DNA from: Thermocatellispora tengchongensis
Lineage (GTDB): Bacteria > Actinomycetota > Actinomycetes > Streptosporangiales > Streptosporangiaceae
Assembly (NCBI RefSeq): GCF_014202315.1
Contig: NZ_JACHGN010000033.1
Span: 1 to 64,000 of the forward strand
Direction of reading: 5' to 3'
DNA length: 64,000 nucleotides
Shown here one piece after another: positions 38,156 to 55,579 of the stretch. The position numbers and the translations under genes were made by a program. The notes below the pieces were generated by a model. That model saw nothing but the letters and a program-made list of their open reading frames with translations, searched no databases and was not told the origin of the DNA. Every line of letters starts with the position of its first letter. Within the stretch, counting starts at the first letter, position 1.

Positions 38156-38171
38156 ACTTGCGCGCGTAAGT
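38156..38171. promoter_or_regulatory. LacI-type operator before the MFS/GH78 operon
   Basis: ACTTGCGCGCGTAAGT, a near-perfect palindrome. Its exact reverse complement occurs at 49374-49389. TTGCGC (38159-38164) and TTAACA 17 bp later could be -35 and -10 boxes overlapped by the operator. Confidence 0.75.
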
Positions 38172-38227
38172 AGCGTGTGGTTAACATCCGGGACACATCT
38201 CACCCCTTCGAAACCACGGGGTCCCCC

Positions 38228-39490
38228 ATGAGTGCAAGCGCACCGGCAGTCTCCCTCCCACCCAAGGTCAGCCCGACCTACATCTGGCTGATGGTCCTGG
38301 CCCAGTTCGGGGTCTTCATGGCGTTGACCACGCCGCTCGCCATCTCCCTGTCGATCCGGGTCGCCCAACTCGCTCCCGGCCAGGAGCAGTACCTCGGCTA
38401 CATCACCGGCGTCGGCGCGCTGGTCCCGATCCTGACCGGGCCGCTGATGGGCACGTTGAGCGACCGCACCCGCTCCCGCCTGGGCCGCCGCCGGCCGTTC
38501 ATCGTCGGCGGCATGATCGTGGGCGTCGTCTCCCTGATCGTGATGGCACTGGCCCCGAGCATCCTCGTCCTCGGGCTCGGCTGGGTGCTGGCCCAGTTCG
38601 GCTGGGGCAGCACGCTGGGCGGTCTGCTCAGCTCCCAGGCCGACCGGCTGCCGGAGGAGCAGCGCGGCAAGGTCGCCGGGCTGAGCGGCTTCGCCGCGCT
38701 GGTCGCGCCCGTGGTGGGCGTGATGCTGGCCGGAACCCTGTCGGGCAAGGCCCTGATGCTGTTCCTCGTCCCCGGCGCCGTCGGCGTGCTGTCGGTGGTC
38801 CTGTTCGCCTGGCTGGCCGGTGAGGCCGACAGCAGGGACCTGCCCGCCGCCGAGCCGTTGACCTTCCGGTCGCTGCTGCTGAAGTACACCTGGAGCGTGC
38901 GGCGCTTCCCCGACTTCTCCCTGAACTGGCTGGGACGCTTCGCCTTCTACTTCGGTCTGAGCCTGAACACCACCTTCACCGCCTTCTTCTTCGCCTCCCG
39001 GCTGGGGGTGGGCGTGGAGCAGGTGGCGGGCACGATCGCGGCGGTCGCCGGCCTCGGCGTACTGGCCACCGCGGGCGGGGCGCTGGGCGGCGGGTTCCTG
39101 TCGGACCGGCTGCGCCGTCGCCGGGTGTTCGTCCTGGCCGCCGGAGCGATCTACGCGCTGGGCACGGTGACGATGGCGCTGTCGTCGAGCGTGCCGCCGC
39201 TGTTCGCCGGGTCGCTCATCTGCTCGGTGGGCCTGGGCATGTTCTCGGCCGTGGACCAGGCGCTCGCGCTGGACGTGCTGCCCGAGCGGGACACCGACGC
39301 GGGCCGCTACCTGGGTGTGTTCGGCTTCGCCGCCTCGCTCCCGCAATCCGTCGCGCCGTTCGTCGCGCCCGTCTTCCTCGCCGTCGGCGCGAGCGGCGCG
39401 GAGAAGAACTACACGCTGCTCTACCTCGTCGCCGCCGCCTGCACCCTGCTCGGTGGCCTGGTCATCCTCCGTATCAAGTCCGTCCGCTGA
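38228..39490 (+). CDS. MFS sugar/glycoside transporter
   Basis: A 420-residue carrier with about twelve membrane segments. The loop SDRTRSRLGRRRPFIVGG has the D-R-T-R-S-R-x-G-R-R-R-P-F pattern seen in sucrose/SLC45-like and related sugar carriers. The closest relative in the window is the carrier at 49.7 kb. It is followed 13 bp later by the GH78 gene, so it probably imports a rhamnose-bearing glycoside that GH78 then cleaves. No secretion signal is seen on GH78, which fits cytoplasmic cleavage. Confidence 0.9.
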   Translation: MSASAPAVSLPPKVSPTYIWLMVLAQFGVFMALTTPLAISLSIRVAQLAPGQEQYLGYITGVGALVPILTGPLMGTLSDRTRSRLGRRRPFIVGGMIVGVVSLIVMALAPSILVLGLGWVLAQFGWGSTLGGLLSSQADRLPEEQRGKVAGLSGFAALVAPVVGVMLAGTLSGKALMLFLVPGAVGVLSVVLFAWLAGEADSRDLPAAEPLTFRSLLLKYTWSVRRFPDFSLNWLGRFAFYFGLSLNTTFTAFFFASRLGVGVEQVAGTIAAVAGLGVLATAGGALGGGFLSDRLRRRRVFVLAAGAIYALGTVTMALSSSVPPLFAGSLICSVGLGMFSAVDQALALDVLPERDTDAGRYLGVFGFAASLPQSVAPFVAPVFLAVGASGAEKNYTLLYLVAAACTLLGGLVILRIKSVR

Positions 39491-39503
39491 GGAGCTCGCC
39501 TTG

Positions 39504-41912
39504 ATGTCGTTCGTCACCGCGCCGTTTCCCGCCGAGGCGCCCTACTTCCGGCGCGAGTTCACCTGTGACCGGCTGCCCGACCATGCCCGCCTCCAGGTGA
39601 CCGCGCTGGGCATCGTCGAGCCCTACCTGAACGGCACCCGGGTGGGCGATGAGGTGCTGGCGCCCGGCTGGACGTCCTACCGGCACCGGCTCCAGGTCAG
39701 CACCCATGACGTCACCCACCTGATCCGCTCGGGAGCCAACGCCCTGGGCGCGATCGTCGGCGAGGGCTGGGCCGCCGGACGCCTCGGCTTCGAGGGCAGA
39801 AGACACCACTACACGAAGCGGCCGGCGCTGTACATGCGACTGGAACTCACCTACGGCGAGCAGACAGTGGTCATCGCCACCGACGAACAGTGGCGGGCGG
39901 GCACCGGCGCGGTGCTGGCCGCGAGTCTGTACGACGGCGAGACCTACGACGCCCGGCGGGAGCCGCGGGGCTGGAACCTGCCGGGGTTCACCGGCACCTG
40001 GGCACGGGTGGAGCCCTTCGAGTGGGACCTCGGCACCCTGGTGCCCACGGTCGCCACCCCGATCCGCCGGATCGAGGAGCTGACCCCGGTGGAGACCGTC
40101 ATCAAGGACGGCAAGACGATCGTCGACTTCGGGCAGAACATCTCCGGCTGGGTACGGCTCACCGTCACCGGCCAGGCCGGGCAGAGCGTGACGATCCGCC
40201 ACGCCGAACTGTTGAAGGACGGCGAACTGGACGTCGAGACCCTGCGCACGGCCAGGTCCACCGATCGCTACATCCTGCGCGGCGGCGGCCGGGAGGTCTG
40301 GGAGCCCCGCTTCACCTTCCACGGCTTCCGCTACGCCGAGATCGACGGCCCCTTCGAGGAGGTCGAAGCGGTGGTGGTGCACAGCGACATGCGCCGCACC
40401 GGCTGGCTGGAGACCTCCCACGAGCTGCTCAACCGCCTGCACGCCAACACCGTCTGGTCGATGCGCGGCAACTTCGTCGGCCTGCCGACCGACTGCCCGC
40501 AACGCGACGAGCGCCTCGGCTGGACCGGCGACCTCAACGCCTTCGCCCCCACCGCCGCCTTCCTGTACGACGTGCGCGACGTCCTCGGCTCCTGGCTGCA
40601 GGACCTGGCCGCCGAGCAGCGCGAAAAGGGCTACGTGCCCTGGGTGGTGCCCGACGTGCTGTCCACCCCGTCCTCCCCCACCGCCCTGTGGAGCGACGTG
40701 GCGGTCAGCCTGCCCTGGGTCCTGTACCAGGAGTACGGCGACACCGAGATCCTCAGACGCTGCTACGACTCCATGGCCGCCTTCATCCGCGACGTCGAGA
40801 CCCGGCTCGACGACAACGGGCTGTGGAGCAGCGGCTTCCAGTTCGGCGACTGGCTCGACCCCGACGCACCCCCGGACAACGCCGCGGGCGGCAAGACCGA
40901 CCGGCACCTGGTGGCCGCCGCCTACCTGGCCAAGACCACACGCGAGATGGCCGACACCGCCCGCATCCTCGCCACCGCCGACGCCGGACACTTCGCGTCA
41001 TTGGCCGAAAGGACACGCGACGCCTTCCGCGCCGAATACGTCACCAAGAACGGCCGGGTCGCCGGCGAGAGCACCACCGCCTACGCCCTGGCCATCTGCT
41101 TCGACCTGCTCGACCCCGGCCAGGAGGCCCATGCCGGCGCGCGCCTGGCGCAACTGGTCGCCAAGGCCGGCTTCAAGATCTCCACCGGCTTCGCGGGAAC
41201 CCCGTTGGTCCTGCCCGCCCTCACCAAGACCGGCCACCTGGAAGAGGCCTACCTGCTGCTCCTGGAGACCGGCTGCCCCTCCTTCCTCTACCCGGTCACC
41301 ATGGGCGCGACCACGATCTGGGAACGCTGGGACGCCATCCGCCCCGACGGCACCCTCAACTCCACCGGCATGACCTCGCTCAACCACTACGCCCTCGGCG
41401 CGGTCTGCGACTGGCTGCACAAGACCGTCGGCGGCCTGGCCCCGCTCGAACCCGGCTACCGGCGCATGCGGATCGCCCCCAAACCCGGCGGCGGCCTCAC
41501 CCACGCCACCCTCACCCACACCACCGTCCACGGCCAGGTACGCATCGGCTGGCGCCTGACCCGCCGGTTCACCCTCGACGTGACCATCCCCGACGGCACC
41601 CACGCCCTGGTCGAACTGCCCGACGGCACGACCGCCGAGATCACCGGCGGCAGCCACTCCTTCGGCTGCGACCTGCCCGGCAAGGACGGCCCGCCCGAGC
41701 CGTACACCATGGACACCCCGCTGAAGACGCTCGCCGGGGACCCGGCGGTGTGGCGGGCGGTTACGGAGGCGTTCGCCAAGCACTTCCCCGGCATCCCCCT
41801 CGACGGCACCGCCCCCGAGGCCGCCACCTACTCCCTCAACAACGTGCTCGGCTTCGTCCCCGGCGCGTCGGAGGAACTGGCGAACGACCTGAAGACCGCA
41901 CTGGAAGCATGA
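39504..41912 (+). CDS. GH78 alpha-L-rhamnosidase
   Basis: An 802-residue protein with an N-terminal beta-sandwich (APYFRREFTCDRLPDHARLQ; YLNGTRVGDEVLAPGWTSY), the concanavalin-like domain (TIVDFGQNISGWVRLTVTG) and the (alpha/alpha)6 catalytic barrel. GLPTDCPQRDERLGWTGDLN carries the acidic pair, FQFGDWLDPDAPPDN follows, and GATTIWERWDAIRPDGT holds the second Glu. It removes terminal alpha-L-rhamnose, common in plant flavonoid and saponin glycosides. No signal peptide. ATG 39504 follows GGAG. Confidence 0.95.
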   Translation: MSFVTAPFPAEAPYFRREFTCDRLPDHARLQVTALGIVEPYLNGTRVGDEVLAPGWTSYRHRLQVSTHDVTHLIRSGANALGAIVGEGWAAGRLGFEGRRHHYTKRPALYMRLELTYGEQTVVIATDEQWRAGTGAVLAASLYDGETYDARREPRGWNLPGFTGTWARVEPFEWDLGTLVPTVATPIRRIEELTPVETVIKDGKTIVDFGQNISGWVRLTVTGQAGQSVTIRHAELLKDGELDVETLRTARSTDRYILRGGGREVWEPRFTFHGFRYAEIDGPFEEVEAVVVHSDMRRTGWLETSHELLNRLHANTVWSMRGNFVGLPTDCPQRDERLGWTGDLNAFAPTAAFLYDVRDVLGSWLQDLAAEQREKGYVPWVVPDVLSTPSSPTALWSDVAVSLPWVLYQEYGDTEILRRCYDSMAAFIRDVETRLDDNGLWSSGFQFGDWLDPDAPPDNAAGGKTDRHLVAAAYLAKTTREMADTARILATADAGHFASLAERTRDAFRAEYVTKNGRVAGESTTAYALAICFDLLDPGQEAHAGARLAQLVAKAGFKISTGFAGTPLVLPALTKTGHLEEAYLLLLETGCPSFLYPVTMGATTIWERWDAIRPDGTLNSTGMTSLNHYALGAVCDWLHKTVGGLAPLEPGYRRMRIAPKPGGGLTHATLTHTTVHGQVRIGWRLTRRFTLDVTIPDGTHALVELPDGTTAEITGGSHSFGCDLPGKDGPPEPYTMDTPLKTLAGDPAVWRAVTEAFAKHFPGIPLDGTAPEAATYSLNNVLGFVPGASEELANDLKTALEA

Positions 41913-42494
41913 TCAGGGCAAGGCTGGAAGCCGATCAAGCGCACGGTCCAACAGGGCCAGGATCGCATCGTCGTCGGCCTGGCCGAGGAGACGCTCGGTG
42001 CGCAAGCCCTCGACAAGGCAGAGCAGTTCCCGGGCGTCGGCGTCGGCATCGGACACGCCGGCCCGCCGGAACTGATCGGCCACCAGGGTATGCAGCAGCG
42101 CGTACTGCTCGCGGAAAACGGCCGCGAGATCCGGGTCGGCCGCGGCGCGGGCCGTGAAGGCCGCGGCCAGCCTCGCCTCGACGGCACGCTCCTCGTCCAG
42201 CGGGAGCAACTCCAGCGCGATCGCGCGCAGCACCCGATGGGGTGGCGAGGGCTGCGGCGCGCCGGCCGCCCGCGCCGAGAGCCGCTCGGCCAGACGACGT
42301 CCATGATGCCGCAGCGCGAACAGCAGCATCTCGTCCTTGGTGGTGAAGTGATGCTGGATCGCCCCGGTGGTCACTCCGGCCTCTGCCGCGACCTGCCGCA
42401 GACCCAGCCCGTCCGGCCCGCCGCGGCTCAGCACACGGCCGACCGCTTCGGCGATCGCGGCCTGGCGCCGCGACGGGTCCAATCGAGTCCTCAC
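41913..42494 (-). CDS. TetR-family regulator of the adjacent hydrolase
   Basis: A 193-residue TetR protein. The HTH is LGLRQVAAEAGVTTGAIQHH with FTTKDEMLLFALRHHGRRLA after it. GTG 42492-42494 is chosen because GGGAGGGG precedes it, and the longer frame runs backwards through the divergent promoter. Its stop abuts the GH78 stop with no gap. A perfect 20-bp palindrome separates it from the divergent alpha/beta hydrolase, a classic repressor/target layout. Confidence 0.9.
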   Translation of the reverse strand: MRTRLDPSRRQAAIAEAVGRVLSRGGPDGLGLRQVAAEAGVTTGAIQHHFTTKDEMLLFALRHHGRRLAERLSARAAGAPQPSPPHRVLRAIALELLPLDEERAVEARLAAAFTARAAADPDLAAVFREQYALLHTLVADQFRRAGVSDADADARELLCLVEGLRTERLLGQADDDAILALLDRALDRLPALP

Positions 42495-42507
42495 GGTTCC
42501 CCTCCCA

Positions 42508-42527
42508 TACATTACGATCGTAATGTA
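42508..42527. promoter_or_regulatory. Perfect 20-bp palindromic TetR operator
   Basis: TACATTACGATCGTAATGTA is its own reverse complement and lies between the divergent TetR (start 42494) and hydrolase (start 42544) genes. Confidence 0.85.
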
Positions 42528-42543
42528 GCGGAGGTCCCGCGAA

Positions 42544-43431
42544 GTGGAGCCCTGCGTGCATGTGAGCGGATTCGTCAACGACTCGGCGCGAGAGCGGTTC
42601 TTCGCGCTGTACGAGCAGGCCATGCGGACCTGGCCGGAACACACCCGCCAGGACGTGGAAACCTCCTTCGGCCCCACCGCCACCTACCGGGCGCATGCCG
42701 GCACGGGGCCACCGGTGATACTTCTGCACGGAGGCAAGGCCACCTCGGCGTCCTGGGCCCACCTCGTGCCCACGCTGACCCCGTACGGCACCGTCTTCGC
42801 CATCGACACCCTCGGCGATGCCGGCGCCAGCATCCAGCAGCGCCCGCTGACCGACGCGCACCAGCGCGCGCAATGGCTGGATGAGGTCCTGGCAGGACTC
42901 GGCTGCGACCGCGCCCACCTGATCGGCTTGTCCTACGGCGGCTGGATGGCACTCAACCAGGCCGTACACCGGCCATCGCGGGTCGCCTCGGTGACAGCTC
43001 TCGAACCGGCCAGGGCCCTCACCCCCATCCGCGCCGGCTTCTGGCTCCGCCTGATCTCCACGACGCTCACCGGCTCCACCGCAGCCGCGGTCCGCTACCT
43101 GGCCTGGTGCCGGGCGGGACGCCTCCCGCAGCCGCCGATGCGAGACCTGCTGGTGTCGGCGATGCTGGATCACCGGCAGCGAGCCGTCTGTCCCCCTCAG
43201 CCTCTGACCAACGGCCAACTACGCGCCATCACCGCGCCCACCCTGGTGATCCTCGGCGGACGCAGCCCGGTCCACAACGTCCAGCGCGCGGCGGACCGCA
43301 CGCGCAGGCTGCTCTCCTCGGCCCGGGTAGAGATCGTGGCGGACGCCGGCCACGGGCTACCGGCCGATTCACCCGAAGCGGTCGGCCGGTTGATCCGCTC
43401 GTTCCTACGGGACGTCTCCTCGACCGCTTGA
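42544..43431 (+). CDS. Alpha/beta hydrolase
   Basis: A 295-residue alpha/beta-hydrolase fold protein. The oxyanion motif is LLHGGKATSASW, the nucleophile elbow is GLSYGGWMALNQ (Ser), and the His lies in DAGHGLPADS. An acid is expected near the ILGGRSPVHNV loop but is not clear. GTG 42544 follows GGAGG. It may be an esterase removing acyl groups from glycosides, or serve a different function, since its regulation is independent of the LacI sites. The 43432-43568 gap holds no gene. Confidence 0.88.
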   Translation: MEPCVHVSGFVNDSARERFFALYEQAMRTWPEHTRQDVETSFGPTATYRAHAGTGPPVILLHGGKATSASWAHLVPTLTPYGTVFAIDTLGDAGASIQQRPLTDAHQRAQWLDEVLAGLGCDRAHLIGLSYGGWMALNQAVHRPSRVASVTALEPARALTPIRAGFWLRLISTTLTGSTAAAVRYLAWCRAGRLPQPPMRDLLVSAMLDHRQRAVCPPQPLTNGQLRAITAPTLVILGGRSPVHNVQRAADRTRRLLSSARVEIVADAGHGLPADSPEAVGRLIRSFLRDVSSTA

Positions 43432-43568
43432 ACACCAAGCTCTTTCGAAGATCGTCCTCAGCGGTGAATCAGGGTGGAAAGCACCTCCTGGCGCACGCAC
43501 GCCGCGCCGTACGCGGTGCGCCCGGCACCGCCGGCGGAGAACCGCGCTCTGGGTGAGCGGGGCATCGC

Positions 43569-45071
43569 TCACGAGGCGGTGCCGGATTCGGCGTCCGTGG
43601 GAGTGTGGGGACGGTAGGAGACCTCGCGCACCACGACCTCGCCGGCGACCGGCTCGACGCCGAACGTGCGACCGGTGAAGCCGCCGGCCACTTCGGTTGA
43701 CAGGTAGCGTCCGTCGAACGCGCCGAGAACCTGGGGCGTCCCGTCGGCGGCCAGGACGGCCAGTTCCACGACGTCGGGCTCCGGCGGTGGCATGGGGCCG
43801 GCCGCCGCGGGTTCCCGGACCGAGATGCGCAGCCTCACCCCATCGCCCGGGGGAACCGGCACCCGCGCGATCGTCGTGCGGGCCGGTCCGACGACCACGG
43901 TGGCCTCGACCGTCTCGGCGTCGGCCGTGAGCCCATACCAGTGGGAGCCGTCGATGCCGACGATGAAGCGCCCGGTGCCCCTGGAGGTGTCGAGCCGGGC
44001 CTCCGCTGTCCACTCAAGGTCCCGCGCACGCGCCGCCAGCACCGGCCTCGGGTCGCCCTCGGCGGGCGCCGTCAGCACGAGGCGGCCGGGCGCCTGCCAC
44101 GTGGTGAACGTGTGCGGGAACAGGTTCGGCGACACCCAACGCCGGTCGAGCTCGAAGGAGTCGAACCGATCGACGAAGGAGTGGTCCGGCGGCACCGGGG
44201 CGAAGCGCCCCTCATCGACCACAGGCCAGCCGTCGACCCACTCCACGCCCGCGATGAACGTCTCACGGCCGTTGACGTGGAACATCGGGGTCTGGCCGCG
44301 GGGGCGTACCCCGAGATACACCATGGCCCACGAGCCGTCGGCCAGTTGGACGAGGTCGGCATGGCCGGTGTTCTGCACGCGATGACCCGAGCTGCGATGG
44401 GTGAGGATCGGATTGGCCGGCGCCGCCTCGAAGGGTCCATCCAGCGAACGGGAACGCGCGATGGTGACCGCATGCCCCCGCTCCGTACCGCCTTCCGCGA
44501 GCAGCAGGTACCACCAGCCGTCACGTCGGTAGAGGTGCGGGCCCTCCGGGTAGGCCAGCCCGGTGCCGTTCCAGAGCGACTTCGGCGGGGCGAGCATCGC
44601 GCCCGTCGCGGGGTCGATCGGCGCGCTGATGATTCCGGTCAGCTCAGGCGCGGTCGATGCCCAGGTGAGGTGGCATATCCCGTCCTCGTCCCAGACCAGG
44701 TCCGGGTCGATCCCGATGGCGCCGTCCACGTAGACCGGCTCCGACCATGGCCCCGCGGGGTCATCGGCCGAGACGATCATCTGGCCGCGGTGGATTTCCA
44801 CCACGTTCGTGGTGACAAGCCAGAACCTCCCCCCGTGGTGGCGAAGCGTCGGTGCGTACACTCCCGTGCTCGCGGGGGCGGCACGCACGTCCAACTGCTC
44901 GGGACGCTGCAGCGCGTTGGTCACCAACGTCCAGCTCACCAGGTCGGTGCTGCGGTGGATCGGCACGCCTGGCGCGTACTCGAAGCTGGAGTTGGCGATG
45001 TAGTACGTCTCTCCCACCCGGCAGATGGTCGGGTCGGGGTAGAACCCCGCGATGATAGGTGTCGTCGTCAC
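43569..45071 (-). CDS. GH43 glycosidase (beta-xylosidase/alpha-L-arabinofuranosidase)
   Basis: A 500-residue protein. The five-bladed GH43 propeller has Asp13 (FYPDPTICRVG), Asp122 (GIDPDLVW) and Glu176 (AYPEGPHLYRR), the base, pKa modulator and acid. A C-terminal beta-sandwich (about 310-490) is typical of the GH43 subfamilies that include xylosidases. No signal peptide is present, so it acts inside the cell. The start is GTG 45069-45071. It lies 78 bp after lacI and shares its transcript. Confidence 0.94.
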   Translation of the reverse strand: MTTTPIIAGFYPDPTICRVGETYYIANSSFEYAPGVPIHRSTDLVSWTLVTNALQRPEQLDVRAAPASTGVYAPTLRHHGGRFWLVTTNVVEIHRGQMIVSADDPAGPWSEPVYVDGAIGIDPDLVWDEDGICHLTWASTAPELTGIISAPIDPATGAMLAPPKSLWNGTGLAYPEGPHLYRRDGWWYLLLAEGGTERGHAVTIARSRSLDGPFEAAPANPILTHRSSGHRVQNTGHADLVQLADGSWAMVYLGVRPRGQTPMFHVNGRETFIAGVEWVDGWPVVDEGRFAPVPPDHSFVDRFDSFELDRRWVSPNLFPHTFTTWQAPGRLVLTAPAEGDPRPVLAARARDLEWTAEARLDTSRGTGRFIVGIDGSHWYGLTADAETVEATVVVGPARTTIARVPVPPGDGVRLRISVREPAAAGPMPPPEPDVVELAVLAADGTPQVLGAFDGRYLSTEVAGGFTGRTFGVEPVAGEVVVREVSYRPHTPTDAESGTAS

Positions 45072-45149
45072 CTGTGGCTCTTTCTATCGGGTTATGCGGG
45101 GCGGGCGGCGGGCGGGCGGCCTGTCGCAGGGCGGGCCGATGCCGCCGCC

Positions 45150-46145
45150 CTACCGCCGAGTGGATTCGCGGGCCACGATGGTCGCGTGCAGGTCGGGGGG
45201 CGTCTCGGGCAACGGCCGGTCCTCGGCCGCGTGCAGGGCCAGGTTGGCGAGGTAACGGCCCAGGCCGACGCTGTCGATGCTGACGCTGGACAGCGACGGG
45301 TAGAGCATGCTCGCCATCGGCGTGTCGTCGTGACCGATGACGGCCAGGTCACCGGGGACGGACAGGCCGGCGCGTTGCGCGGCGGCCACGGTCATCGCGG
45401 CGATGTCGTCATTGAAGGCGGCCACGGCGGTGACGCCATTCGCGTGCCATTCCCGTACGGCTCGTGCCACGCTGCCATCGAGATGATCGACCGGACGGAC
45501 GTCGAGGGGGTCGAGGCCGAGCCGGTCGGCTGCCTGCCGCGCCGCTTCCACCCGTCCTTCCGACAGCAGGGAGAAGCGCTCATTGGTGCTCGTCGCGAAG
45601 GCGAGCCGCCGGTGCCCCAGTTCGTGCAAGTGCGTGATCTGCAGGCGAGTGCCCGCGGTGAGCGTCGCCGACGCCAGGGCGGACCGCTCCTGCTGCACCT
45701 GAGGAAGGATCTTGGTGATGCCGCTGGCCTGCATGGAGCTGCGCTCGGCGGCGGTGATGGGCGTCCAGGAGATGACGACGTCCGGGTTGAGCAACTCCCA
45801 CAGGGGCCGGGCGTGCCCCCTTTCGTGGCGGGTGTAGGTCACCAGGGCGTAGCCCGCCTCGTCGAGGATTTGGGAGGCCGTCTCCAGGTTCTGGCGCAGG
45901 CTGTGCTCCATGGGCCAGTCCGGCAGCACCAGCAAAATGATCATGCTGCGCCCTCTGGCGAGCGCCTGGGCGGTCCGGTGCGGCCGGTAGCCCAGACGCG
46001 CGGCCTCGGCCAGGACGCGCTCACGCGTGGCGGCGGGGATGCTCTGGCCCGGGGTGTTGTTGAACACATAGCCCACGGTGGCGCGGGACAATCCAAGCGA
46101 GCGGGCGACATCCGTTGCGGTGACACGCCTGTTTCGCTGCGTCAC
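45150..46145 (-). CDS. LacI-family repressor of the glycoside island
   Basis: A 331-residue LacI regulator: N-terminal HTH VTATDVARSLGLSRATVGYV with the hinge helix YRPHRTAQALARG, then a sugar-binding core (FNDDIAAMTVAAAQRAGLSV, PGDLAVIGHDDTPMASMLYP). GTG 46143-46145 is preferred over the upstream start, which would lie beyond the palindrome. The operator at 46167-46194 lies 22 bp upstream. Similar 16-bp sites before the main island operons suggest one regulon, induced by a released sugar or the glycoside. Confidence 0.93.
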   Translation of the reverse strand: MTQRNRRVTATDVARSLGLSRATVGYVFNNTPGQSIPAATRERVLAEAARLGYRPHRTAQALARGRSMIILLVLPDWPMEHSLRQNLETASQILDEAGYALVTYTRHERGHARPLWELLNPDVVISWTPITAAERSSMQASGITKILPQVQQERSALASATLTAGTRLQITHLHELGHRRLAFATSTNERFSLLSEGRVEAARQAADRLGLDPLDVRPVDHLDGSVARAVREWHANGVTAVAAFNDDIAAMTVAAAQRAGLSVPGDLAVIGHDDTPMASMLYPSLSSVSIDSVGLGRYLANLALHAAEDRPLPETPPDLHATIVARESTRR

Positions 46146-46166
46146 GAGAACTTCACCTCTGCCTGC

Positions 46167-46194
46167 GATAGGGCTTGCACGCGCAAGCCCTATC
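46167..46194. promoter_or_regulatory. LacI operator in a long palindrome before lacI
   Basis: GATAGGGCTTGC, four bases ACGC, then GCAAGCCCTATC: perfect 12-bp arms. The core GCTTGCACGCGCAAGC fits the island's 16-bp operator pattern. It could also act as a terminator for the upstream GH2 gene. Confidence 0.8.
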
Positions 46195-46238
46195 ACTATC
46201 TCATGGAATCATCCATCGCCCGCAAATCGCGGGGTCCA

Positions 46239-49157
46239 TCAGTCCTCTTCGGAGAGTGTCAGGCGCCACTGCCAGGCGTATTCGCGCCGGGGCAGCCGAT
46301 ACGCGGGCAAAGTGTCGGGGCCCAGAAGTCCGGTGCCGACGCCGCGATGAGCGATGTCGAGATGGACGACGGTCTTGCGGCTCGGCCGCAGTTCCCACCA
46401 GTGTGCCGCCGCCTCCAGCTCGCTGATCGCGTAACGGCTCACGGTCATGTGCAGGGGCGTCGCGTGCACGGTTCGCACGGTTCCGGCCGGGCCGGACAGG
46501 CGTAGTTCGGTGACCTCCCCGCGGCCACCGTTCTCCTGCGGTTTCAGATACGGCACGGCGAGATCGCCGATGGGGCTCTCCCACGCGCCGAGCAGGGCCG
46601 AGGCTCGGCGGTCGGGGTAGTTCTCCCACGGCCCCAGCCCCACCCATCGGGCCTGTTCGAAGCCGTCCACGAGCTCGAACTCCATGCCCACGCGCAGCCC
46701 GTCGCCGACGGCATCGGGCAGCGTCACATGCTCGGCCAACAGGTAGTCTCCCTGGTCCAGGACCGTGACGGTGCGGGTGTGCACGACCTCGTCACCGAAG
46801 GCCGCGCGGTACCGGATGGTGGCCGTCCCGGCGTCGGCGCGGACATCGATGGGCGTGAGCTGGAAGAAACCGGATCGGACGAACCGGTTGTCCAGGGCGA
46901 ACGACTGGTCGTTGTCGGTCAGGGCCCGCCACAGGCACAGTTGCGGCCCACGGCGCAACAGCGGATGACGCACTTCGGCGTGTGCGGTGCCGGTGTCACG
47001 GGGAAGGCGCGGCAGCCTGCGGGGGAAGGTGACCTGATGGGCGGAGACCTCTGTGCCCGCCGGCGCCCACACGGCGTCCCGGCGCGTACGCACGCTCACG
47101 GTGAGCGCCAGGGCCGTGCCGAGCAGCGCACGGATCGAATCCGGCACGTCGATGATGGCCTCCGCACCTGGCGCCGCCGGCGGCGCGGGGAGCGTGACCG
47201 CGCCCACCGGCCCGTCTTCGGTCTCCACCTGCAGCCGCAGGTCGTAGGCACCGAGGTCGGCGAAGGTCTGCCGGTTGCGCAGCCGTAACGTACCGGCCTG
47301 GGCCTCCTCCGCGCCGGAGGTGATGCGGATCGGGCTGAACAGGCCGCGCGCCTCGTACAGCGCGGGCTTGGGGGTGAGGTCGGGGAAGACCACGCCGTTG
47401 AGGAGCGTGACGCCGTCGTTCGGCTCGTCGCCGAAGTCGCCGCCATAGCGGTACCGGCCGTCGCCGTCGGGGTCGAGCGCGTGGTCCTTGAATTCCCAGA
47501 TGAAGCCGCCTTGCAGGCCCGGCAGGTTCTCGAACAGCCGCCAGTACTCGGCCAGTCCGCCGGTCGAGTTCCCTTGCGAGTAGGCGTACTCGCACAGGAT
47601 GACCGGCCGGTCCGCTCGCGGATCGGCGGAAAAGGCCGTGAGGGCCTCGAACGAGGGATACATCGGGCAGACCAGGTCGCTGGCCGCGTGGCCGGCATGC
47701 CAGTCCCTGGCGATCGCGCCTTCGTAGTGCAACGGCCGTGTCGGATCGACGGCGCGCACCCACGCGGCGGCGGTATCGTGGCTGGGCCCGTAACCGGTCT
47801 CGTTACCGAGCGACCAGATGATCAGCGAGGGATGGTTACGGTCGCGCAGCACCATCCGGGAGACCCGCTCGACGAACTCGGGCAGGTAACGCGGATCGTG
47901 GGCGAGCGTGGTGGTGAAGGCGTGCCCCTCGATGTCGGCCTCATCGACCACGTAGAAGCCGATCTCGTCGCACAGGTCGAGGAAGACCGGGTCGTTGGGA
48001 TAGTGCGAGGTACGGATCGCGTTCACGTTGAACCGCTTGAGCAGGGACAGTTCCGCCAGCATCAGCTCCCGCGAGATGACGCGGCCGGTGCGCGGGTCCA
48101 CATCGTGGCGGTTGACTCCCTGGATGAGCACGCGTTCGCCGTTGACCAGCAGGTCACGCCCCTCGATGCGTACGCGGCGGAAACCGATGCGCAACCGCGC
48201 CGTGTCCACGGTCTCGCCCGCGGGCGAGACCAACTCGACCAGCAGCTCTTCCAGATGCGGTGTCTCGGCCGTCCAGGGGGCGACCTCAAGGGCGTCGAGT
48301 GTGAGGACCGCGGTGCCCGCCTTCTCCCGCGGCGGCATCATGCCATCGGCCGCCGGGCGCAGTTCCTCGGCGATGGGAGCGCCGGCCGCGCGCAGGCTGA
48401 GCAGATCCATGAGCCCGTCGGGGAGGCCCAGCGGCTTGGGCCGCTTCGAGCGATCGGTCAACGGCGGCGCGAAGGCGGGCTCCACCACGCGCGGGCTGAT
48501 TCCGCGTGTCTCCGTCCGGCCGAGCACCTCGATCCGTGCCGACCACGCGACCTCGTGCAGATGGTCCAGTCCGGCCGTGGCCACCGTCACTTTCAAGCTT
48601 CCGCGCCCGGCCTCGTAGTCCGCCACCACGGCCACGTCACGCAGGTGCACCTCCGGCACGGTGTAGAGGAACACCGATCGGGACAGGCCGGCCTGCCACC
48701 AGTGGTCCTGGTCCTCCAGGTAGGTGACCGCCGACCATTTGGCGATCTGGAGCTCGATCGTGTTGGAGCCCGCTATCACGGCGTCGGTGATGTCGAACTC
48801 GGCCGCGAGATGCGAGTCGGTGCTGGTCCCGACGGGGTGGCCGTTGACGGTGACGCTCAGGTGACCTTCGGCGGCGCCGACGTGCAAGATCGTCCGGCGC
48901 CCCGGTTGTGGCGTCAGTTCCACGGTCCGCCGGTAGACACCGGTTGGATTGTGCTCCGGGACCGCGGGAGGCACCTCGTCGAACGGCATCGCGACGTTGA
49001 GATAGTGCGGCGGATCGGCCTTCTCCCGCATCGTCCACAGTTCCGGCACCTCCACGCTCTTCCACTCCTGCTCATACGGCAGGAGCCGGAACTCCCACGT
49101 CCCGTCGAGGACGATGTCGGGCGTACGGCGCAGCGCCCCCATGGGCAGGCGTTTCAC
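46239..49157 (-). CDS. GH2 beta-galactosidase (LacZ-like)
   Basis: A 972-residue protein with the LacZ layout: N-terminal jelly-roll (WWQAGLSRSVFLYTVPEVHL), immunoglobulin-like domain, TIM barrel and C-terminal beta-sandwich. The acid/base Glu453 is in IIWSLGNETGYGPSH and the nucleophile Glu523 in ILCEYAYSQGNSTGG. An insert of roughly 80 residues (about 220-300) lies in the second domain. The usual His after CEYA is Tyr (CEYAYSQGN). GTG 49155-49157 has GAGGAG upstream. It would remove beta-galactose or a related sugar. Confidence 0.94.
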   Translation of the reverse strand: MKRLPMGALRRTPDIVLDGTWEFRLLPYEQEWKSVEVPELWTMREKADPPHYLNVAMPFDEVPPAVPEHNPTGVYRRTVELTPQPGRRTILHVGAAEGHLSVTVNGHPVGTSTDSHLAAEFDITDAVIAGSNTIELQIAKWSAVTYLEDQDHWWQAGLSRSVFLYTVPEVHLRDVAVVADYEAGRGSLKVTVATAGLDHLHEVAWSARIEVLGRTETRGISPRVVEPAFAPPLTDRSKRPKPLGLPDGLMDLLSLRAAGAPIAEELRPAADGMMPPREKAGTAVLTLDALEVAPWTAETPHLEELLVELVSPAGETVDTARLRIGFRRVRIEGRDLLVNGERVLIQGVNRHDVDPRTGRVISRELMLAELSLLKRFNVNAIRTSHYPNDPVFLDLCDEIGFYVVDEADIEGHAFTTTLAHDPRYLPEFVERVSRMVLRDRNHPSLIIWSLGNETGYGPSHDTAAAWVRAVDPTRPLHYEGAIARDWHAGHAASDLVCPMYPSFEALTAFSADPRADRPVILCEYAYSQGNSTGGLAEYWRLFENLPGLQGGFIWEFKDHALDPDGDGRYRYGGDFGDEPNDGVTLLNGVVFPDLTPKPALYEARGLFSPIRITSGAEEAQAGTLRLRNRQTFADLGAYDLRLQVETEDGPVGAVTLPAPPAAPGAEAIIDVPDSIRALLGTALALTVSVRTRRDAVWAPAGTEVSAHQVTFPRRLPRLPRDTGTAHAEVRHPLLRRGPQLCLWRALTDNDQSFALDNRFVRSGFFQLTPIDVRADAGTATIRYRAAFGDEVVHTRTVTVLDQGDYLLAEHVTLPDAVGDGLRVGMEFELVDGFEQARWVGLGPWENYPDRRASALLGAWESPIGDLAVPYLKPQENGGRGEVTELRLSGPAGTVRTVHATPLHMTVSRYAISELEAAAHWWELRPSRKTVVHLDIAHRGVGTGLLGPDTLPAYRLPRREYAWQWRLTLSEED

Positions 49158-49373
49158 GGATGCTACTCCTCAGTAAGCGTGCGGGCGTGGACGCGCATGC
49201 GGTTCGCCGCGGGACAAGGCGATCCTTCTGACAGTCGGGCCGGTGGAAGCACCGATCAACGGTGGCGGACCGGCTCGTCCGGGCCCGGATCGGTCGCCCC
49301 ACGACGCAAGCCCGTGCTCCTCGTGCTCCTCGTGCTCCTCGCGGGAGACGAGGCCCCAACTGTAGGCAGATGA

Positions 49374-49444
49374 ACTTACGCGCGCAAGTACTTGTGCGTG
49401 AAAGTTGAGGGGGCTACCGTACCGGCAAGCTTGCGCGCGAAAGC
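49374..49444. promoter_or_regulatory. Triple LacI operator and promoter between GH2 and the second MFS operon
   Basis: Operators ACTTACGCGCGCAAGT (49374-49389), ACTTGTGCGTGAAAGT (49390-49405) and GCTTGCGCGCGAAAGC (49429-49444). TTGTGC, 17 bp, TACCGT form a possible plus-strand promoter. Spacing and content match 55063-55133. The rest of the 589-bp gap 49158-49746 has no gene I can support; a weak frame 49467-49799 after GGAG may be a leader or a decayed gene. Confidence 0.78.
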
Positions 49445-49746
49445 GCCCGGAAATGGTGGAGTAACGATGGCGGCCAGTCCTCACCACAACGCGCCGGAGG
49501 GGACGTCGGACTCACCCGTTCTCGACCGTCACCCGCGCATCCCGCCCGCCCCAAGGACACCGCGAATCATGAAGGCCGGTCCGATCCAGGGTGCCGTCCC
49601 CATGGACCTCGTTGACTTCGGTGCACGGACAAAGCCATCGGTTCGCGCCGGCGTGGGGGCCAGGCGGCGAGCTGGGACCCGGCGATCGGCAAGAAGGTGC
49701 GCCGGATCGCGCACCACGTTCGAAGAGACGACGACGGAGTCAGACA

Positions 49747-51063
49747 ATGACCACCCAACATCCGGACCGTGGCACCAAGCTTCCGACGGATACCGCTGAT
49801 GACCCCGGTCCGAACGGTCCTGTCGTCACCGGCGTCCAGCCCGAACCGCCGCGCGCGTCGAAGTGGCTGATCTTCGTCTACACGATCACGATGTTCGCGG
49901 GCAGCTTTGCCCTGCTCACCCCGACCCTCTTCGCCGTCGCCTACAAGGTGCAGCAGGTGGATCCGCAGGGGAAGGAGACGGCCCTCGGCGTCATCGTCGC
50001 GGTCGCCGCCGTGATCAATCTGCTGGCCGGGCCGCTGTGCGGCGTCCTGTCCGACCGGACCCGGCTGCGGTGGGGGCGACGACGCCCCTGGATCGTCGCG
50101 GGCATCATCATCTGCGCGGGCAGCGGCCTGCTCATGGCTCTGGCCACCACCACGGTGTCGATCGGCATCGGCTGGGCCGTCTACACCGTCGGCCTGGCGT
50201 GCGCGTTGGGCGCCATGAACCCCGTACTCGCGGAGACGATCCCCTCCGGCCAGCGCGGAACGGTCGGCGCCCTGGTGGGGGTCGGCGGCCAGCTCGCGGG
50301 CGTGGCAGGCACCCTCGTCGGAAGCATGCTCACCGGCGATCCGCTGCTGCTGTTCCTCCTTCCCGTCGCCGTGCTGGCGGTCCTGTTCGTCGTGTACGCG
50401 GTCACCATCCCCGACGGGCCGGCGCCGGCCGCGACGGAGCGTCAATCCCTGGGGGCGGTGTTCCGTCAACTGGTGTTCGACCCGCGAAGGCACCGGGACT
50501 TCGCCCTGGTCTGGCTCGGCCGTTTCCTGATGCAGGTGGGGCTGACCTTCCTGAGCACCTACCAGCTGTATTTCCTGCTCGACCGGCTCGGTCTCGTCCC
50601 GGAAGACGCCGGGCGGCAGCTCGCGTTCGTCGGTGGCATCGGAATCGCCGTGACCACCCTTTTCGCGGTCGTGGGCGGGATCGTCTCCGACCGGCTGAAG
50701 CGCCGAAAGGCGTTCATCTACCTCGCCTCCGCGCTTTCCGCGACCGGTCTGGTCATCCTGGCGTTCGCGAACGGGGTGCCTCAATTCGCCACCGCCGTCG
50801 GCTTCGTTCTCGCCGCAGCGGGACTGTTCGGCTCCGTTGACCTGGCCCTGGCCGGCGACGTGATCCCGGACAGCTCCGAGGCGGGGCGGTGGATGGGCAT
50901 CTACTACGTCGCGAACACCACCTCCACGGCCCTCGCCCCGATGTTCGCGCCCGCCATCCTGCTCATCGGTGGGGGCGGAAACTACACGGCCCTGTTCCTG
51001 GTCGGCGCGGTAGTGGCCCTCGGGGCCGGTCTCACGGCCCAGCGTATCCGCGCCGTTCGCTAG
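49747..51063 (+). CDS. MFS sugar/glycoside transporter, second copy
   Basis: A 438-residue membrane carrier related to the one at 38.2 kb: SDRTRLRWGRRRPWIVAG is the same loop pattern, and GDVIPDSSEAGRWMGIYYVA matches the GPH/sucrose-type family. About twelve helices follow a polar 45-residue N-terminus. ATG 49747 follows CGGAG; the longer upstream frame is not coding-like. It leads the operon with GH3 and the dehydrogenase. Confidence 0.9.
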   Translation: MTTQHPDRGTKLPTDTADDPGPNGPVVTGVQPEPPRASKWLIFVYTITMFAGSFALLTPTLFAVAYKVQQVDPQGKETALGVIVAVAAVINLLAGPLCGVLSDRTRLRWGRRRPWIVAGIIICAGSGLLMALATTTVSIGIGWAVYTVGLACALGAMNPVLAETIPSGQRGTVGALVGVGGQLAGVAGTLVGSMLTGDPLLLFLLPVAVLAVLFVVYAVTIPDGPAPAATERQSLGAVFRQLVFDPRRHRDFALVWLGRFLMQVGLTFLSTYQLYFLLDRLGLVPEDAGRQLAFVGGIGIAVTTLFAVVGGIVSDRLKRRKAFIYLASALSATGLVILAFANGVPQFATAVGFVLAAAGLFGSVDLALAGDVIPDSSEAGRWMGIYYVANTTSTALAPMFAPAILLIGGGGNYTALFLVGAVVALGAGLTAQRIRAVR

Positions 51064-51082
51064 CACCCACAGATAGGCAACG

Positions 51083-53341
51083 ATGACCACTCATCACGAC
51101 GATGACAGACCCGCCGCCGACGCCTCACAGGCGGCACCGCTTTCCGGGATTCCCGCAGAGCGGAAGGCGAGCCTGCTGTCCGGCAGGAACTTCTGGGAGA
51201 CCGAAGCGCTCGAAGAAGCGGGGATCGCCGCGATAGCGATGGCCGATGGGCCGTATGGTCTGCGGCACCAGTCCGGCCATCATGACAACCTCGCGCTGTT
51301 CGAAAGCGATAAGGCGACCTGTTTCCCGCCCGGCGTCGCGATCGGCTCCAGCTGGGACCCGGCCATGGCGGCCCGGCTCGGCACAGCGCTCGGCAAGGAG
51401 GCGGCCGCACAGGGAGTCGATGTCGTTCTCGGCCCAGGCGTCAATATCAAGCGCTCCCCGCTGTGCGGGCGGAACTTCGAGTACTACTCCGAGGACCCGC
51501 ACCTGTCCGGTGTTCTCGGGGCCGCGTTCACCCGCGCTCTCCAGGCCGAGGGCCCAGGCGCGTCCGTGAAGCACTTCGCCGCGAACAATCAGGAGACGAA
51601 CCGGCAGACCATCAGCTCCGATGTCGACGAGCGCACGCTCCGCGAGATCTACCTGCCGGCGTTCGAACACATCGTCACCGAGGCGCGCCCGGCGACGGTG
51701 ATGGCGTCCTACAACAAGATCAACGGCGTGAGCGCCTCCGAGAACCGGTGGTTGCTCACCGAGGTGCTCCGCGGCGAATGGGGCTTCGAAGGGGTCGTCG
51801 TCTCGGACTGGAGTGCGGTGACCGACCGGGTCGCGGCTCTTAAGGCGGGCCTCGATCTCGAAATGCCCGGTGGTGACATGGGCCACGACGAGGACGTGCT
51901 CACGGCCCTGCGATCCGGAGAGGTCTCAGAATCCCACGTCGATGCGAGTGTCGCGCGGATCGCCGCGCTGGCCCGGCGCAAGGTGACCTCGGCCGCCGCG
52001 GTCGATTACGAGGAGCACCACCGGATCGCCCGGCAGATCGCGCAGGAGTGCGCGGTGCTGCTCCGCAACGAGGACCAGGTCCTGCCCATCCCCGGTGGGG
52101 TCCATGTCGCGGTCATCGGCGCGTTCGCCGAGCACCCGCGGTATCAGGGCGGGGGCAGCGCGCACGTCAATGCGACGCGCGTCGACCGGCCGATCGACGA
52201 GATCCGTACGATCGCGGCCGAGGTGGGAGCGACCGTCGGCTACACGCCCGGGTTCGTCCTCGATGGGCCGCGGGACGAGCGGCTCGTCTCCGACGCGATC
52301 GCCGCGGCCCGCAGCGCCGACATCGCGGTGGTGTTCGCCGGTCTGAGCGAACAGCGGGAGTCGGAGGGATTCGACCGGGACACCATCGACCTTCCCCCGG
52401 CACAGGTCGAGCTCATCCGCGAGGTCGCGGCCGCCGCGCACCGCACCGTCGTCGTCCTCGCCAACGGCGGCATCGTCTCGCTGGAGGGATGGCACGACGA
52501 CGTGCACGCGATCCTTGAGGGATTCCTGCTCGGCCAAGGAGGCGGACACGCTGTCGCCGACATCCTCTTCGGCCGGGTGAACCCGTCCGGCCACCTGGCC
52601 GAGAGCATCCCCATCCGGCTCCAGGACCATCCGAGCTGGCTGAACTTCCCCGGCGAGCAGGGACACGTGCGATACGGCGAGGGAGTCCTCGTCGGCTACC
52701 GCTACTTCTCCACCGCGGGGACTCCCGTGAGATACCCCTTCGGGCACGGCCTGTCCTATACGACGTTCGAGACACGCGCTCTGCGCGTCACCCGCAAGGG
52801 CGCCGACAGCGCGACCGCCGAAGTCGTGGTGACCAACACGGGGACTCGTGCCGGCAAGCATGTCGTCCAGGTCTACGTGGCGACCGAAGCCGGGCCCGTC
52901 CGGCGCCCGCTGCGGGAGCTGCGGGGGTTCGCCAAGGTCCGGCTCGACCCCGGCGAGACCGCGACGGTGGAGATCGACCTTCCCCGGCGCGCCTTCGCAT
53001 ACTGGGACGTCCGCGTGGGTCGCTGGGCGGTCGCCCCAGGCGACTACCGCATCGAGGTGTGCGCCGACGCCAACACCGTGCTGCGGTCCTCGACCCTCAC
53101 ACTCCAGGGCGAGCGCATCGCCACCGAGTTGACCATGGACACCCCCGTCGGGGCGTGGTTCGAGCATCCCGGCGTGGGCTCGAAGGTCATGGACGCGCTC
53201 GGGCTGACAGGCGCGCCGATCACCGAGGAACAGATGGCGATGATCGCCTCAATGACGATGCGGCAGTTCATCGGCATCTCGGGCCTGGACGTCTCCACGG
53301 ACGCTCTGCGATCACTCATGGCGGCCAGCCGCCCGGCCTGA
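51083..53341 (+). CDS. GH3 beta-glucosidase-type enzyme, first copy
   Basis: A 752-residue GH3 protein with an (alpha/beta)8 domain, alpha/beta sandwich and fibronectin-III domain. The nucleophile is Asp242 in VVVSDWSAV; KHFAANNQETNRQ and the likely acid region SEQRESEGFDRDT are present. It ends with a helical extension (WFEHPGVGSKVMDALG, MTMRQFIGISG) also seen in the second GH3. No signal peptide. It would release glucose or xylose. It lies 19 bp after the MFS gene. Confidence 0.94.
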   Translation: MTTHHDDDRPAADASQAAPLSGIPAERKASLLSGRNFWETEALEEAGIAAIAMADGPYGLRHQSGHHDNLALFESDKATCFPPGVAIGSSWDPAMAARLGTALGKEAAAQGVDVVLGPGVNIKRSPLCGRNFEYYSEDPHLSGVLGAAFTRALQAEGPGASVKHFAANNQETNRQTISSDVDERTLREIYLPAFEHIVTEARPATVMASYNKINGVSASENRWLLTEVLRGEWGFEGVVVSDWSAVTDRVAALKAGLDLEMPGGDMGHDEDVLTALRSGEVSESHVDASVARIAALARRKVTSAAAVDYEEHHRIARQIAQECAVLLRNEDQVLPIPGGVHVAVIGAFAEHPRYQGGGSAHVNATRVDRPIDEIRTIAAEVGATVGYTPGFVLDGPRDERLVSDAIAAARSADIAVVFAGLSEQRESEGFDRDTIDLPPAQVELIREVAAAAHRTVVVLANGGIVSLEGWHDDVHAILEGFLLGQGGGHAVADILFGRVNPSGHLAESIPIRLQDHPSWLNFPGEQGHVRYGEGVLVGYRYFSTAGTPVRYPFGHGLSYTTFETRALRVTRKGADSATAEVVVTNTGTRAGKHVVQVYVATEAGPVRRPLRELRGFAKVRLDPGETATVEIDLPRRAFAYWDVRVGRWAVAPGDYRIEVCADANTVLRSSTLTLQGERIATELTMDTPVGAWFEHPGVGSKVMDALGLTGAPITEEQMAMIASMTMRQFIGISGLDVSTDALRSLMAASRPA

Positions 53342-53389
53342 GCCCGCGTCACGCGAAACCCCGTCATCGAAGACAGTCTGGAGACGGAC

Positions 53390-54406
53390 GTGAAGAGTTT
53401 GAGAGTCACCGCTCCTGGCACCGTCGAACTGCTCGACATCGCCCGCCCGGCCGCAGGGCCGCGCGACGTCCTGGTGAAGGTCAGGGCCTGCGGGATCTGC
53501 GGTACCGACGTGTTCTACACCCACATCGGCGGGCTGCCGCATCAGCGGTACGACATACCGCTGGGGCATGAGGCCGCCGGTGAAGTCGTCGAAATCGGCG
53601 CCGACGTATCGGGTGTGTCCGTCGGGGACCATGTGGTGGTCAACCCGATGGCGAACGCCGACGGCATCATCGGCAACGGAGGCGTCCAGGGCGCGCTGTC
53701 CGAACTGCTCGTCCTTCCGGATGCCAAGCCCGGCGTGCATTTCCGCGTGATTCCCGATGACATCCCGTGGGAGGTGGCGGCGCTCAACGAACCGATGGCC
53801 GTCGCGTTCCACGGCGTCAACCGGTCCGGCACCGGCGCAGGAACCAAGGTGGTCATCTTCGGCGCCGGCCCGATAGGGCTGGGAGCGGCCGTCGCGTCCA
53901 AGTCCAATGGCGCGGATCACGTCGTGGTGGTGGACGTGGTCGCCAACCGGCTGGAGAAGGCGCGGCTGATCGGCGCGGACGGGGTCGTCAACTCGGCCGA
54001 GGAGGACGTGATCGAGCGCCTCAAGGAACTCCACGGACAGGTGCCAGGACCCGTCGGACGGCCGCCGCGGCCGGATACGGACGTCTACCTGGACGCCGCC
54101 GGCGTGCCTGCCGTGATCGAAACGGCTCTCAAGGGACTCAAGCACGGCGCGGTTCTCACGATCGTCGGCGTCCACAACAAGCCGGTGGAGATCGACCTGC
54201 GAGACATCCTCCCCAGCGAACCCGACATCCGGCTCGCCATGGGCTACCCGACCGAGATCTTCGAGGTGACCGAATCGATCATCGCCGACTGGCGGAAGTA
54301 CCGGCACCTCATCAGTGACATCGTGCCTTTCGCCGAAGCGGAACGAGCCATTCGGCTCGCGTCGGTTCCCGGCGCCACCGACAAAGTCGTCGTCGTTTTC
54401 GACTGA
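53390..54406 (+). CDS. Zinc-type alcohol dehydrogenase without the structural zinc lobe
   Basis: A 338-residue MDR-superfamily protein. Catalytic-zinc residues are seen in RACGICGTDVFYTHIG and PLGHEAAGEVVEIGADVSG, and the Rossmann motif is VIFGAGPIGLGAAV. The four-Cys structural zinc loop usual in sorbitol/threonine dehydrogenases is missing; the region reads NPMANADGIIGNGGVQGALS. It may oxidise a sugar, a polyol or the alcohol released from a glycoside. It lies 48 bp after GH3 in the same operon. Confidence 0.9.
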   Translation: MKSLRVTAPGTVELLDIARPAAGPRDVLVKVRACGICGTDVFYTHIGGLPHQRYDIPLGHEAAGEVVEIGADVSGVSVGDHVVVNPMANADGIIGNGGVQGALSELLVLPDAKPGVHFRVIPDDIPWEVAALNEPMAVAFHGVNRSGTGAGTKVVIFGAGPIGLGAAVASKSNGADHVVVVDVVANRLEKARLIGADGVVNSAEEDVIERLKELHGQVPGPVGRPPRPDTDVYLDAAGVPAVIETALKGLKHGAVLTIVGVHNKPVEIDLRDILPSEPDIRLAMGYPTEIFEVTESIIADWRKYRHLISDIVPFAEAERAIRLASVPGATDKVVVVFD

Positions 54407-54445
54407 CGTCGTGCCGCCTTCACTGGCGCTACCCGTCGTGCCCGA

Positions 54446-54508
54446 TGGACGTGCGTGCCGCCCTGAGACCACGGGAGTGTACGCACCGGCGCTTCGCCAT
54501 CACGGGGG
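54446..54508 (+). pseudogene. Scrap of a GH43 gene
   Basis: The plus-strand sequence here closely matches the minus strand of the intact GH43 gene at 44831-44892 (about 88 percent by eye, with a 1-base deletion). Translations agree: TGVYAPALRHHGGR here and TGVYAPTLRHHGGR in the gene. Nothing else of the gene is left. Confidence 0.75.
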
Positions 54509-55062
54509 AAGACCACACTGGAGGGATCCCGGTGAACCTGGACGTCGGCGTCGTAAGGCTACAGGGGCACGGACGCGCCGAAGCCATCGCAGCCATGACA
54601 GGTCCCGCTCAGTGGGAACCAGGCATCGTGCCCTGGTGAGGTACTCCTAGCGTTCGTTCGTGGGGTGCCCATGGCCCAGGTCATCGTCGACAGCGTGAGG
54701 TGCCACTTGAACACGGCGGCAAACGCATGCGAGCCGAATCGAGGCGTGCTCCTGAGGATGCGACTCCAGGACCAGCGGCACTGATGCCGGTAGCGAACAA
54801 CTGAATATCGCCGCCGCGAATGTTCCTTCGAGTCTTCGGAGCCCTCTCAGAAAGGCTTGTCCCATGACCGGCGGACCGCCCGGCTGCACGGTTCATCGAC
54901 GCCGTACGAGAAGTGGGGATCGCACTGGAAAAACTGAAGCACCCACCCACCACGCCGGTCGGCGCCTAGCGGGCATGACGAGCATCGGAGCGAAAGGCCC
55001 CGGTTGATGCGGGCTTAGCGCCGCCGGCGCCTAGCCGTACGGCGCCCCTCACTGTAGCGGTA
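54509..55062. other. Gene-free decayed stretch
   Basis: No convincing gene. A short plus-strand tail RFIDAVREVGIALEKLKHPP followed by TTPVGA and a stop near 54969 looks like the end of a lost coding sequence, family unknown. The stretch follows the GH43 scrap and precedes the second triple operator. Confidence 0.5.
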
Positions 55063-55133
55063 ACTTTCGCGCGCAAGCACTTGTGCACGAAGATGGAGAT
55101 AGCTAGCGTACCCACAGGCTTGCGCGCGAAAGC
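55063..55133. promoter_or_regulatory. Triple LacI operator and promoter before the GH3/GH1 operon
   Basis: ACTTTCGCGCGCAAGC (55063-55078), degenerate ACTTGTGCACGAAGAT (55079-55094) and GCTTGCGCGCGAAAGC (55118-55133). TTGTGC, 17 bp, TAGCGT are possible -35 and -10 boxes. First-to-third operator offset is 55 bp, as at 49374-49444. Confidence 0.78.
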
Positions 55134-55544: not shown

Positions 55545-55579
55545 TCCAATCGTCCGCATCCCCCGAAGAGAAATGGCAG

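Follow-up and report, generated by a model that had tools for sequence, protein, structure and literature searches.

A putative LacI regulon for plant glycosides in Thermocatellispora tengchongensis with two related bidirectional operator-promoter blocks

The window analysed here, a stretch of 64,000 nucleotides from the soil actinobacterium Thermocatellispora tengchongensis, contains a cluster of glycosidase and transporter genes that we regard as likely to be a plant-glycoside regulon under a local repressor, the lacI product. The cluster holds two two-way blocks of operators and promoters, and both blocks would derive from one ancestor and have arrived with different operons.

Operators upstream of five transcription units

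A sequence-only reading of this DNA had claimed 16-bp sites before five units, and we indeed found eight such operator sites upstream of the units MFS1-GH78 (+), lacI-GH43 (-), GH2 (-), MFS2-GH3a-ADH (+) and GH3b-GH1 (+), as defined by Pfam gene calls (Table 1). The operator is an even 16-bp palindrome with a central CG (RCTTGCGC/GCGCAAGY), which fits an operator of the LacI/GalR family. With up to three mismatches the consensus is matched 12 times in the window (1.94 expected) and 0 shuffles gave 12. Genome-wide counts come from pattern searches of the 11.65-Mb genome: the strict site RCTTNCGCGCGNAAGY occurs in five places, every one inside the cluster, and its reversed control has 0 matches, while the looser core CTTNYGCRYGNAAG occurs at 0 mismatches in nine distinct places, seven of them within the cluster. 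Shuffles and the genome-wide reversed control together rule out a chance origin of the sites. A -35-like hexamer overlaps the MFS1-GH78 operator, and an identical operator/-35 layout is present upstream of the MFS1 homolog of Actinocorallia. The start codon of lacI is most likely located at 46145. An Rfam search of 37-60 kb returned no RNA element, leaving a riboswitch or leader RNA in this region unsupported.

Table 1. Genes, operators and predicted promoters of the cluster (positions in the window).
Feature	Position	Strand	Remarks
Operator, MFS1-GH78	38156-38171	+	overlaps -35-like TTGCGC (38158-38163); 18 bp to TAACAT (38182-38187)
MFS transporter 1 (MFS1)	38228-39490	+	Pfam MFS_1, 4e-35
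GH78 alpha-L-rhamnosidase	39504-41912	+	Bac_rhamnosid6H, 2e-123
GH43 glycosidase	43569-45071	-	downstream of lacI; Glyco_hydro_43, 5e-87
LacI-family regulator (lacI)	45150-46145	-	PF00356 and PF13377; recognition helix SRATVGYVFN, Tyr26
Operator, lacI (GCTTGCGCGTGCAAGC)	46173-46188	-	lacI's own promoter region; within a longer palindrome; 28 bp upstream of start codon
GH2 (LacZ-type)	46239-49157	-	left arm of block 1; Glyco_hydro_2_C, 8e-88
Leftward promoter, block 1	49359-49387	-	-35 TTGCGC (49387-49382, within O1), 17 bp, -10 TACAGT (49364-49359); towards GH2; kept in related genomes
O1, block 1	49374-49389	+	operator pattern match
O2, block 1	49390-49405	+	abuts O1; holds rightward -35
Rightward promoter, block 1	49392-49420	+	TTGTGC-17-TACCGT; towards MFS2
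O3, block 1	49429-49444	+	at predicted rightward transcription start
MFS transporter 2 (MFS2)	49747-51063	+	nearest relative (72%) in Actinocorallia MFS-GH3-GH1 unit
GH3 glycosidase a (GH3a)	51083-53341	+	profile matches
Zinc-dependent dehydrogenase (ADH)	53390-54406	+	Pfam
Short GH43 fragment	54446-54511	+	66 bp; lies between ADH and block 2; 90% identity with the GH43 of this cluster
Leftward promoter, block 2	55051-55076	-	TTGCGC-14-TACAGT; spacer 3 bp shorter; predicted dead
O1, block 2	55063-55078	+	operator pattern match
O2, block 2 (ACTTGTGCACGAAGAT)	55079-55094	+	one half degenerate; holds rightward -35
Rightward promoter, block 2	55081-55109	+	TTGTGC-17-TAGCGT
O3, block 2	55118-55133	+	operator pattern match
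SDR (short-chain dehydrogenase) remnant	55182-55543	+	internal deletions; 5' part 83% DNA identity to intact Planobispora SDR
GH3 glycosidase b (GH3b)	55574-58204	+	88% identical to Planobispora
GH1 glycosidase	58201-59376	+	88% identical to Planobispora

The three-operator block as a two-way promoter

The three-operator layout described earlier for 49374-49444 and 55063-55133 is present in both blocks, with O1 directly next to O2 and O3 at +55, and so are the matching rightward boxes. Two corrections have to be made to that description: one half of O2 in block 2 is degenerate, and the leftward promoter of each block had been overlooked. In the aligned blocks of the relatives, conservation runs left of O1 as far as ACTGTAG, which is TACAGT on the other strand, 17 bp from the TTGCGC of O1; block 1 therefore holds a leftward promoter too. 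Two opposed sigma70-like promoters per block (TTGCGC-17-TACAGT and TTGTGC-17-TACCGT) are kept across genera, and their -35 hexamers are 4 bp apart, the leftward one lying in O1 and the rightward one in O2. By its sequence the block is thus a back-to-back, bidirectional promoter with predicted start sites, and RNA polymerase could hardly occupy both promoters simultaneously. In a limited literature search we found no published case of LacI operators on back-to-back divergent promoters.

The lacI product would act as a local and probably self-limiting repressor of uptake and deglycosylation of plant glycosides. Without inducer, LacI is predicted to bind the palindromes, and since the half-sites also provide the -35 hexamer, repressor and RNA polymerase would compete for the same bases. 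Repressor bound to the abutting O1 and O2 would shut the block in both directions, with O3, which lies at the rightward start, as a second barrier. To judge from the family, a sugar or glycoside derived from the imported substrate would release both arms. Given the half-degenerate O2, repression may differ at block 2.

Occurrence of the block in related genomes

The O1-O2 pattern detected the block in 6 of 341 family genomes, that is, in 5 of 340 besides T. tengchongensis: two of Nonomuraea type, Actinomadura kijaniata, Planobispora longispora and the genome G330. Four of these five match loci that were also reached via lacI. Up to three blocks are found per genome (three in Planobispora longispora), and in every block-bearing genome they sit within a glycosidase cluster. 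The same operators are present at the orthologous lacI loci of Nonomuraea, Actinomadura, Planobispora and Actinocorallia, where one of them precedes lacI.

In Nonomuraea sp. SYSU D8015 (L035, 6621-6695) the leader between the block and GH1 matches the 3' end of the window's ADH (74% over 77 bp), suggesting that this cluster lost an ADH. GH3 or GH2 frames are broken or split in Actinomadura kijaniata (L036, 2023-2777) and Nonomuraea parvosata (L034, 1916-4137 and 6993-9907), by decay or sequencing error.

Origin of the two blocks

The sequence-only reading had suggested duplication of a regulatory cassette; the shared ancestry of the blocks is upheld by our comparison, copying inside the cluster is not. 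Blocks 1 and 2 are identical at 57 of 71 positions within the blocks and drop to background level outside. Over about 131 bp they are 69% identical, whereas block 1 is 80-83% identical to the G330 and Nonomuraea blocks and block 2 is closest to Planobispora block iii (78%). A tree of the 136-bp blocks also places block 2 with Planobispora iii, with a bootstrap of 69% that is weak alone. By these alignments the two blocks share an ancestor, but each has closer relatives elsewhere.

Gene order gives stronger evidence than this tree. The series block 2, SDR remnant, GH3b, GH1 is collinear with the Planobispora series block iii-MFS-SDR-GH3b-GH1, except that the MFS gene is missing and the SDR gene shrunk by internal deletions. 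Identity to Planobispora is 88% for both GH3b and GH1, against 69% and 83% to G330; for lacI and GH2 it is 74-81%, and here G330 is closer with 87-88%. Clade tests agree with this, though at modest strength (p about 0.03): for GH2 a clade of window and Planobispora was rejected (AU test, p 0.026), for GH1 a clade of window, G330 and Nonomuraea (p 0.034), and the branch uniting window and Planobispora in the GH1 tree has a support of only 78/88. MFS2 and GH3a are nearest (72-76%) to an MFS-GH3-GH1 unit of Actinocorallia, in whose vicinity we found no such operator.

An old duplication of the block before the genera split, followed by differential loss and without horizontal exchange, is a possible but doubtful course of events. 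Planobispora, with its three blocks, shows that T. tengchongensis is not alone in having more than one block per cluster, which would suit such a history. However, the AlaRS identities do not track those of the cluster genes: the window's genome is 85.5% identical to G330, 84.8% to Planobispora and 82% to Nonomuraea, and G330 is closest to Planobispora (89.5%), while G330 shares 90-94% identity with Nonomuraea in GH1, GH3a, GH3b and MFS. This conflict favours exchange between lineages over pure descent and would require such exchange even with an old duplication.

The version of the sequence-only reading, in which block 1 was copied inside the cluster and set before GH3b-GH1, is improbable. 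The number of identical positions, the equal spacing and an O3 that is identical in both blocks agree with it, but the spacing is ancestral, each block is more similar to blocks of other genera than to its counterpart, and the position of block 2, ahead of SDR, GH3b and GH1, is precisely that of the block in the Planobispora operon. The copies are thus not mutual closest relatives, as they would be after a recent local duplication.

The pair is better explained by the joining of two operons that already carried the promoter, and the two blocks probably took different routes into the cluster. Block 1 would have come from a Nonomuraea-type GH43-lacI-GH2 half and would now drive an Actinocorallia-type MFS-GH3 unit. 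Block 2 would from the outset have served a Planobispora-type MFS-SDR-GH3-GH1 operon as its native promoter; this operon would since have lost the MFS gene and most of the SDR gene, and horizontal exchange is the route that we infer. On this comparison the most fitting reading of the cluster is a mosaic of regulated units, of which two came with a block of their own. By its match to the cluster's GH43, the short fragment in front of block 2 is debris and a sign of past rearrangement.

Decay of arms without a gene

Since no gene to the left of block 2 reads away from the block, its leftward arm has nothing to drive, and it has decayed. Two Planobispora blocks, i and ii, likewise lack a gene that reads away from the block, in their case on the right. 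In each of these three arms the promoter is damaged: block 2 has a 14-bp spacer, Planobispora block i has TGCGGT, and block ii has TGCGAT and has lost O3. In contrast, all arms with a gene are intact (15 of 15), with the TANNGT box kept at 17-18 bp; the nominal p value of 0.0012 treats related blocks as independent. Both Planobispora lesions share TGCG and may be a single event.

The regulator and its specificity residue

The lacI product carries an N-terminal HTH domain (PF00356) and a periplasmic-binding-like core (PF13377), both over cut-off, which makes it a member of the LacI/GalR family; its PDB matches are GntR, CcpA and the Lac repressor. An operator lies at its own promoter and is kept in orthologs, in keeping with autoregulation through the predicted binding. 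Close orthologs (68-88%) have a CTTG-type operator 41-69 bp upstream of the start of the lacI match, while most of the more distant relatives (~50%) have CTAG-type sites.

This difference follows residue 26 of the protein. With Tyr26 (TVGY), CTTG is present on both halves (10 of 10 sites), and with Phe at this position (TVGF), CTAG is present on at least one half (40 of 40). Tyr or Phe predicts CTTG or CTAG operators in all 41 proteins, and position 26 is the sole error-free separator of the two classes among 343 alignment columns. In a new genome set fetched after the rule had been stated, from which five loci with an HTH motif that could not be scored were left out, two new Tyr proteins have CTTG sites only and 9 of 9 new Phe loci have A at that base. 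On the tree of the 41 proteins residue and operator base each switch five times, in every case together; only three contrasts lie on strongly supported branches, so that a sign test cannot reach significance. Four TVSY proteins have no site of this kind, and in view of these and of the five unscored loci we claim the rule for TVG[YF] proteins only.

The earlier proposal of a LacI regulon is thus well supported by sequence evidence, as the sites are confined to the cluster, one precedes lacI, they are kept with the orthologs and a base co-varies with residue 26. The lacI gene very probably encodes the regulator of these operators. That some other LacI protein of this genome, which has 38 matches at E 0.001, or several of them serve these operators is very unlikely: paralogs of 48% and 44% identity exist, one adjoining an MFS1-GH78 pair, but the 48% paralog has Phe and, at its own promoter, the only CTAG-type site of the genome, and the Tyr/CTTG link assigns the operators to the LacI of the window.

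A second MFS1-GH78 pair, 74-75% identical to that of the window, is located on contig 11 of the same genome near 301801 (L029), divergent to the 44% LacI paralog and without this operator. By its gene content this locus is a parallel rhamnoside system.

Comparison with known systems

Local sugar regulons of the LacI/GalR family (Ravcheev et al. 2014, PMC4052901) share with this one the even 16-bp palindrome with a central CG, autoregulation and several sites before glycoside genes. The spacing peaks reported there are 13, 22 and 32 bp, whereas the abutting sites of the window are 16 bp apart, and unlike in those regulons each abutting site holds the -35 of one of two opposed promoters.

In the TVSR subgroup, residues of the recognition helix set the half-site bases, a rule that emerges from autoregulatory sites (Camas et al. 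2010, PMC2978694). Here, too, a recognition-helix residue would specify a half-site base; however, the window's LacI has TVGY and lies outside that subgroup. Where TVSR proteins have arginine, this LacI and its relatives have Tyr or Phe, and this residue tracks the half-site base five from the centre, and the two preceding specificity residues (Arg-Ala) are nearly constant.

Clusters in which GH2, GH3 and GH78 together deglycosylate steroidal glycoalkaloids of potato are described for the actinobacteria Arthrobacter sp. S41 and Glutamicibacter halophytocola S2 (as cited in PMC10653915). The window also has these three families clustered, and adds GH43, GH1 and two MFS transporters to those named in the account of these clusters. 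A locus of Arthrobacter sp. S39 contains a related LacI (54%), an MFS transporter and a GH78. The combination of GH78, GH2, GH3, GH1 and GH43 with MFS uptake resembles clusters that strip sugars from plant saponins, a lead to a putative substrate. NCBIfam models naming glycosidase activities scored only below their curated cut-offs, and we therefore claim no substrate from them.

The adjoining region (1-33150) encodes acyl-CoA dehydrogenases, CoA-transferases, a thiolase-like protein, CoA ligases, a branched-chain-type ABC transporter and a cytochrome P450, and probably serves CoA-dependent catabolism of a cyclic or terpenoid aglycone. At 167-296 a 32-bp tandem repeat is present in four copies (93% matching).

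Implications

Taking these results together, we cautiously favour the view that, outside the published code, one residue (Tyr or Phe at the position of the TVSR arginine) sets half-site base 5 to T or A and separates parallel sugar regulators within one genome, and that the operator/-35 hybrid block is a promoter module which moves along with operons and sheds the arm that has no gene. The two-way hybrid block, the trimming of its arms and the operator switch by a single residue are new. The latter would be a clean and testable specificity switch in a large family of sugar repressors, with natural CTTG/CTAG pairs in one genome. A two-way repressor-promoter module that is common to several operons and trimmed by disuse would illustrate in concrete terms how sugar regulons come together.
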